NCBI RefSeq assembly: GCF_013409865.1
Contig: NZ_JACCBM010000001.1
Coordinates: 3,596,001 to 3,660,000 of the forward strand
Length of the DNA stretch: 64,000 nucleotides
Source: Herbiconiux flava
Lineage (GTDB): Bacteria > Actinomycetota > Actinomycetes > Actinomycetales > Microbacteriaceae
Reading direction: 5' to 3'
The translations under genes were made by a program, and so were the position numbers. The stretch's first letter is position 1. The number at the start of each line of letters is the position of its first letter. This document shows positions 48,608-48,948 of the stretch, piece by piece. The notes under the pieces are model-generated. The model ran no database searches, had not been told where the DNA came from, and saw only the letters and a program-made list of their open reading frames with translations.

Positions 48608-48627
48608 CATGCAATGATTGATGCATG
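48608..48627. promoter_or_regulatory. repressor operator O2 (candidate), over the start codon
   Basis: CATGCAATGATTGATGCATG, arms CATGCA/TGCATG around 8 bases. It overlaps the repressor ATG, so repressor could limit its own translation or transcription. Confidence 0.6.
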
Positions 48628-48948
48628 GTTGATGAGCGTCGAGACACCGAAGCGGTTTCTTGGGATGAATGGGACATGGCCGACCGCATGAAGCGTGCTC
48701 TGCGATTGACGGGCATAAGCGTGCAGCAGATGGCCACGGACTTGGGCGTCGAGCGAGGCACTGTCGGCAGCTGGATCAACGGCCGGATCGTGCCCCGTAA
48801 AGCAACGGTTATGGCCTTCGCGCTGCGCACCGGCGCCCCGTTCGAATGGCTCTGGACCGGTACCCCCGGAAACGACAAAGCGCCCGACCCCGAAGGGTCG
48901 AGCGCTTCCGATGTGCACCCCCTCGGACTTGAACCGAGAACCCACTGA
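48625..48948 (+). CDS. phage immunity repressor, prophage (truncated) form
   Basis: 107 residues with a Cro/C1-type HTH (SVQQMATDLGVERGTVGSWINGR at about 31-53). The last ten residues HPLGLEPRTH are encoded by the att core antisense to tRNA-Lys, and the TGA at 48946-48948 uses host base A48948. Joining the core to the other prophage end (32704 on) gives ...HPLGLEPRTH-CLTAVAPLALVA-stop (119 aa), whose TGA (32738-32740) overlaps the next gene's ATG. So attP lies in the gene and integration removes an ssrA-like tail. This matches integration-dependent immunity (see findings). Confidence 0.88.
   Translation: MVDERRDTEAVSWDEWDMADRMKRALRLTGISVQQMATDLGVERGTVGSWINGRIVPRKATVMAFALRTGAPFEWLWTGTPGNDKAPDPEGSSASDVHPLGLEPRTH
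48913..48947. other. attR (35-bp core, right)
   Basis: Identical to attL. It rebuilds the 3' part of tRNA-Lys and holds the end of the repressor gene on the other strand. Confidence 0.93.

Follow-up and report, generated by a model that had tools for sequence, protein, structure and literature searches.

When the repressor gene of a prophage runs into the tRNA gene in which the element has inserted, does integration itself decide which form of the repressor is made, and hence whether the cell is immune? The question is raised by a prophage of the window (the whole 64-kb stretch of DNA analysed here), whose repressor frame crosses the attachment site. We consider it probable (about 85%) that integration into a tRNA-Lys gene removes a degradation tail from the predicted repressor, so that a stable repressor that confers immunity would be present only when the phage is integrated. 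The anatomy of this switch is real, and the function proposed for it is very likely.

The attachment site and the two forms of the repressor

The att core is an exact 35-bp repeat, whose match does not continue on either flank (Table 1). It occurs twice in the window, even when up to three mismatches are allowed, against 0.00 copies expected (100 shuffles), and the insertion point is the 3' half of the tRNA-Lys gene. The downstream flank was compared with 16 genomes of the genus, that of the window included: two of the other 15 congeners match it in full and 13 in part. In the former two, the flanks are joined without the element in one contiguous alignment (2,200 bp, 85% in G397; 2,233 bp, 83% in G011), and these empty sites support the boundaries of the element.

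The prophage form of the gene, whose PHROG is annotated as a transcriptional repressor, ends in LGLEPRTH, followed by a TGA (48946–48948), the A of which is the first host base. The sequence-only reading, which had placed the core inside the repressor frame and credited host base A48948 with completing the stop, is correct to the base. It also noted that the frame continues when the phage ends are rejoined, and virtual excision (48947 joined to 32704) does produce the longer frame: the junction codon is TGC (Cys) in the joined phage and TGA in the lysogen, so that A48948 reduces the gene from 119 to 107 codons; the long form has the C-terminus CLTAVAPLALVA and its stop (32738–32740) overlaps the ATG at 32737. 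In the joined sequence, the repressor, the 59-aa and 39-aa ORFs and the integrase follow each other in one direction.

Table 1. Features of the prophage and of its attachment site (positions in the window)
Feature	Position	Strand	Basis
att core, int-proximal copy, 35 bp	32669..32703		exact repeat of 48913-48947
repressor frame beyond core, after joining	32704..32740	+	virtual excision; part of 35-bp stretch 88.6% identical to L164 native gene
59-aa ORF, ATGA overlap with long-form stop	32737..32916	+	no PHROG/Pfam match at E<=0.1
39-aa ORF, ATGA overlap with preceding ORF	32913..33032	+	read from sequence
tyrosine integrase, 278 aa, C-terminus AVLAAAAA	33125..33961	+	Pfam PF00589 1e-14; PHROG 1 3.1e-37
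tail spike-like protein	35199..36941	-	PHROG 7458 2.7e-9
short tape measure-like protein	38512..39702	-	weak PHROG 3779 0.008
major tail protein	40205..40627	-	PHROG 4574 8e-9
major capsid + protease fusion	41382..43049	-	PHROG 2263 8.1e-47; resembles fusions of 14-17 kb actinophages
portal protein	43447..44535	-	PHROG 12 3.2e-14
large terminase	44745..46601	-	PHROG 9 2e-19
replication initiation-like protein	47693..48319	-	PHROG 1032 1.6e-14
divergent 75-aa HTH protein, Cro- or excisionase-like	48316..48543	-	weak PHROG 7506 0.0066, PHROG 66 0.018; HTH_17 under cut-off
candidate operator, copy 1 of 16-nt direct repeat	48580..48595		repeat scan
candidate operator, copy 2, 88% identical, over repressor start codon	48611..48626		repeat scan
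repressor gene, prophage form, 107 aa	48625..48948	+	PHROG 2328 E=1.1e-20; Pfam Phage_CI_repr 9.3e-7
att core, repressor/tRNA copy, 35 bp	48913..48947		exact repeat; 3' part of tRNA-Lys gene
host tRNA-Lys(ctt), attB gene	48913..48986	-	ARAGORN

The element could be a decayed remnant in which the switch is a fossil, and indeed several small genes have no profile match at E<=0.1. We regard this as unlikely, since the genes for integrase, terminase, portal, capsid and tail proteins have open frames, the cores are exact and the size equals that of isolated actinophages of 14–17 kb. The length of the element, 16,244 bp, and the capsid-protease fusion, whose best matches (about 30–36% identity) are in such phages, fit a small actinobacterial siphovirus of this size class.

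A repeat scan of the two att flanks, each taken on its own, found the 16-nt direct repeat of Table 1, whose two copies begin 31 bp from each other and may form an operator pair. The scan for promoter and terminator consensus sequences in 48300–49100 found neither a sigma-70-like promoter, whose absence counts against the switch, nor a terminator.

That the long frame is the native phage gene, as had been proposed, is supported by relatives in which the gene is not cut by integration. In locus L164, which belongs to an Actinomycetota MAG, the repressor gene is uninterrupted and ends in PRPLALVA in the same GTCGCATGACC context, and the start of the integrase gene (E=2.8e-73) overlaps the repressor stop. 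The L164 DNA can be aligned over 35 bp with the window sequence beyond the core (Table 1), with PLALVA kept despite a synonymous change. Since the window's version of this end exists only after joining, the join restores a sequence that is found elsewhere. The L164 repressor gene contains no tRNA or T-arm, and its own att site is thus not located, which counts against the switch.

When proteins were searched with the 119-aa form, ten matched, one of which is the window's own; eight were read. P0002, 50% identical to the window repressor, ends in PYLVA, and P0003, with a tRNA-derived stretch inside, in EMAA; P0009 ends in LTAA, P0006 in GLAS, P0005 in SIN, and P0007, which also has a tRNA-like stretch inside, in AVAR. 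In P0004 and P0008, the sequence seems to be that of a prophage form that ends within a tRNA.

For the contig scans, a first profile (A1) was dropped as too divergent; profile A2, made from three sequences, gave six viral and five genome loci. Two of the viral contigs also speak for a native long frame: in L159 and L161, the long form encloses the T-arm and ends in SAAA and ARAA, respectively, although the tRNA-Lys(ttt) that ARAGORN calls over that of L161 is unusual, with 97 nt. In L156, the gene is in a tRNA-bound prophage form, L158 is BlueFeather-like (end HRA), L160 ends in PPR at a contig edge, and the viral loci L157, L162 and L163 have no tRNA or T-arm. Among the genome loci, a tRNA overlaps the gene in L165, L167 and L168 and not in L166 (Microbacterium helvum). 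A repressor-homologue locus is also carried by contig NZ_JAAIKA010000001.1 of Canibacter zhoujuaniae, another member of the Microbacteriaceae. The tail pattern PLALVA plus ATGA was found at six loci of viral contigs over two scans, none of them in a repressor frame, so that the support for a PLALVA-type tail comes from L164 and P0002.

Homologous repressors in phages and in genomes of the order

The 107-aa query matches 224 INPHARED records, and 189 when the residues encoded by the core are left out; cluster P mycobacteriophages and Gordonia phages are among the matches. We did not count 32 Brevibacterium records as relatives, because they match only the longer query and none of them the core-free part. 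The repressor of Phayonce (cluster P) is 48.8% identical over 74% of the query, and that of Gordonia phage Rahul is also homologous.

We read the viral forms of 12 HTH genes from 11 phages. An antisense T-arm lies in the viral frame in Phayonce and BigNuz (both ending in ERVA), Rahul (LHAA), McGonagall (LVAA), Wizard (PAAA), Coeur (VVAA) and Emperor (PVAA). The Nyceirae repressor ends in VTAA and has no T-arm match, and no antisense T-arm was seen in BlueFeather (HRA), two PensacolaC28 genes (DAA, GVE) and Cole (GEP).

Two of these phages deserve a separate remark. BlueFeather, an Arthrobacter phage of 16.3 kb without annotated integrase, has a repressor homologue (L081, 13785–14096) that is 58% identical over 62 residues. 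PensacolaC28 (L082, 13009–14728), a Microbacterium phage of 16.7 kb announced as lytic, has a tyrosine integrase annotated as two genes. In the frame of its repressor-like HTH gene, one stretch resembles a tRNA read in the sense direction; the ancestor of this phage may have been a temperate one of the kind described here.

In bacterial genomes, the 107-aa query finds a match in 20 of 299 Microbacteriaceae (E<=1e-6), and a profile built from 16 HTH domains, without the core, finds matches in 61/398 genomes of the family and 64/396 of the order (E<=1e-10), the two samples overlapping and at most 14 candidates being scored per genome. All 50 places with at least 58 bits in the two lists were examined. 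ARAGORN predicts an antisense tRNA (Lys, Arg, Thr, Asn or Ala) over the 3' end of the repressor gene in 35 of them, entirely within the frame in one case (G033a). A second core was located for 26 of the 35, at a spacing of 14.8–18.5 kb in 19 and of 8.2, 32.9, 34.4, 35.4, 39.4, 40.5 and 42.1 kb in the others. When these elements are excised in silico, the repressor becomes longer in 25 of the 26. The exception is G033a, whose integrated frame is longer and whose excised end is CSP, which counts against the switch. As 35 of 50 homologues sit diagnostically on a tRNA gene, the survey suggests that prophages with this repressor in Microbacteriaceae and neighbouring families usually have attP in the repressor gene.

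The nine cases in which no second core was found include five with little upstream sequence before the contig end (G062, G293, G179, G276, G756) and four in which none occurs within about 39–59 kb (G576, G689, G559, G672). The 15 homologues in which ARAGORN predicts no tRNA at the 3' end also count against the switch; they comprise one five-gene array in G456, three genes at contig edges (G370, G744, G464) and seven other loci (G271, G052, G280, two in G251, G033b and G514). Three profile matches below 58 bits that were also read (G194, G176, G014) do not have the arrangement.

Some of these loci are peculiar. The array of G456 (L095, 16260–18615) consists of five repressor-like HTH genes within 2.4 kb, the first of which lies at the distal core of a 42-kb element and has a tail of the long-form type, PVAA; the cluster looks like an array that accumulated at one att site. 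G033 has two repressor homologues 16.75 kb apart at a tRNA-Arg (L086 and L090), likely a tandem prophage, and its copy on the tRNA side crosses the entire tRNA without a stop and exceeds the excised form in length, the reverse of the rule. Last, the close homologues of G271 and G052 (L004 and L012) are followed by what appears to be the antisense 5' half of a tRNA only, where ARAGORN finds no tRNA; the 3' half may have been replaced by integration or lost by decay.

What the removed tails have in common

It could be argued that all this is frame geometry: an attP next to the repressor gene takes whatever stop codon the tRNA offers, and the 12 extra residues matter neither for stability nor for activity. 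A short open extension is presumably expected by chance in GC-rich DNA, and tRNA-Arg is read in three different frames among the relatives. Yet geometry alone predicts neither the ends of the long forms nor the recurrence of att in the repressor gene across elements whose profile HTH domains are only 23–58% identical to the window's. The last residue is A in 16 of the 26 long forms, compared to 7/50 in the other two frames (Fisher 3.4e-5), and the last two are AA in 10 of the 26, compared to 3/50 (Fisher 7.5e-4). Both proportions also exceed the background of ORFs of at least 120 aa, in which 233/1,317 (17.7%) end in A (binomial 8e-7) and 51/1,317 in AA (binomial 2.3e-8). The 26 long forms are not fully independent, since there is some homology between their tails, and the ten that lack a terminal Ala count against the switch. 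With the conservation of PLALVA in L164, these controls make the geometric explanation quite unlikely.

In another explanation, the position of att mainly serves to control the integrase, whose gene would be uncoupled from the repressor promoter and off in the prophage, the truncation of the repressor being a tolerated by-product. An integrase gene does follow the distal core in 26/26 elements, and the stop of the long form overlaps the start codon of an ORF of at least 30 aa by one or two bases in 16/26, a raw count without a null to which we give little weight. This explanation leaves the C-terminal bias of the removed tails unaccounted for, and stabilising the long-form repressor of BPs is reported to raise lysogeny (PMC4557955); we consider it very unlikely.

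We favor the degradation switch. The host tmRNA tag, ANSNSTVAAKKATFALAA, ends in FALAA, and the viral repressor in LALVA; ALVA resembles the end of the host tag, yet it lacks the canonical -AA, and LVA, a known ssrA variant, is common to L164 and P0002. The ALVA tail may be a target of ClpXP. The integrase C-terminus AVLAAAAA is ssrA-like by sequence, and of the 26 integrases, 15 have a terminal A and 11 a terminal AA. By homology with BPs, the free phage would produce the repressor and the integrase from one operon, both with unstable C-termini, and the activity of a host protease would decide whether the integrase survives, hence whether integration occurs. Integration would then part the int gene from the repressor promoter and give the stable 107-aa repressor, which would shut the divergent lytic promoter.

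The tails differ between families. AA ends are found in 3/19 Microbacteriaceae long forms versus 7/7 in five other families (Fisher 1.8e-4). The median hydropathy of the removed tails (those of at least 8 residues, which leaves out the 4-residue tail of G033a) is 0.81 for 18 Microbacteriaceae tails versus -0.41 for the seven others (p=0.014). It is also higher than in the other frames of the Microbacteriaceae genes (median -0.45, p=2.7e-5), but off-frames are a weak control, because Arg is often abundant in those of GC-rich DNA, and we therefore added the ORF background (median -0.37): 10/18 tails lie above its 90th percentile (p=4e-7), and the excess persists when related tails are collapsed to 10 groups (p=3e-4). 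In these comparisons, the 12-residue tail of the window is set against 20-residue ends. Hydrophobic examples from Microbacteriaceae are ALVA, LAAVRS, LRSVSA and WAAxDVLAE; the tails of G240, G227 and G127 do not have hydrophobic ends. It may be, tentatively, that Microbacteriaceae use the same switch with a changed destruction signal, a hydrophobic C-terminal degron instead of a hydrophilic linker followed by -AA; we offer this as a possibility only, because the comparison between families is post hoc and the sample small. If it were true, the lysogeny decision may depend on another protease or adaptor. The difference is directly testable, and the long and short forms of the 26 elements, taken in pairs, could serve to find out which C-termini are recognised by bacterial proteases.

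Comparison with known systems

The original paper on integration-dependent immunity is reportedly Broussard 2013. Such immunity has been published for phages of Mycobacterium, Gordonia and Bifidobacterium (PMC4557955, PMC5559632, PMC6109161). In the open-licence literature, as far as its accessible text goes (PMC7954295, PMC11895466 and PMC9934374 included), we found no description of it in Microbacteriaceae, and the main text of a Curtobacterium prophage survey mentions neither attachment sites nor tRNA (PMC9862828). Within these limits, the earlier statement that the system is undescribed for these hosts holds, the mechanism itself being well known, and the present case would extend integration-dependent immunity to Microbacteriaceae.

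The likeness to BPs, which the sequence-only reading had recognised, is supported: the anatomy matches the published system, and the repressor is homologous to those of cluster P. As described for BPs, attP is in the repressor gene with a 35-bp core in a tRNA gene, a host base turns a Cys codon into a stop, the viral form is longer, with a tail that in the window may be ssrA-like, and the integrase has an ssrA-like tail (PMC4557955, PMC9262239). In BPs, 33 residues are lost (gp33-136 to gp33-103) at a tRNA-Arg, compared to 12 residues, tail ALVA, at a tRNA-Lys in the window. Unlike BPs, the window element has two small ORFs before int, which counts against the switch, and a host of another family. 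BPs-type systems are said to be devoid of a directionality factor (PMC9262239), whereas the window element has an HTH protein with weak excisionase-like matches, and this also counts against the switch.

Most cluster P genomes are reported to use integration-dependent immunity (PMC9635641). The cluster P phages Phayonce and BigNuz have homologous repressors, whose viral forms include the T-arm and end in ERVA; they differ from the window element by their genomes of about 49 kb and their tRNA-Thr site (PMC9635641). In phage Galaxy, attP is described as lying outside the repressor gene (PMC5513430). The Bifidobacterium prophages Bb423phi2 and 689b-1 are small, and when they are excised in silico, 18 residues are gained, with an ssrA-like tag (PMC6109161); their site is tRNA-Met, whereas that of the window is tRNA-Lys.

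The cluster CW Gordonia phages (McGonagall, Jeanie, GMA5, GRU3) and the Coeurvirus phages (Rahul, Coeur) likewise have genomes of 16–17 kb, with the repressor gene beside that of a tyrosine integrase and a capsid-protease fusion. McGonagall, Rahul and Coeur also have the tRNA T-arm in the repressor frame; their repressors are 32–41% identical to that of the window, and the viral forms of Coeur, McGonagall and Rahul end in VVAA, LVAA and LHAA, compared to ALVA. As in the window, attP of cluster CW is reported to be in tRNA-Lys, and GMA5 has an extra ORF between the repressor and integrase genes (PMC5559632).
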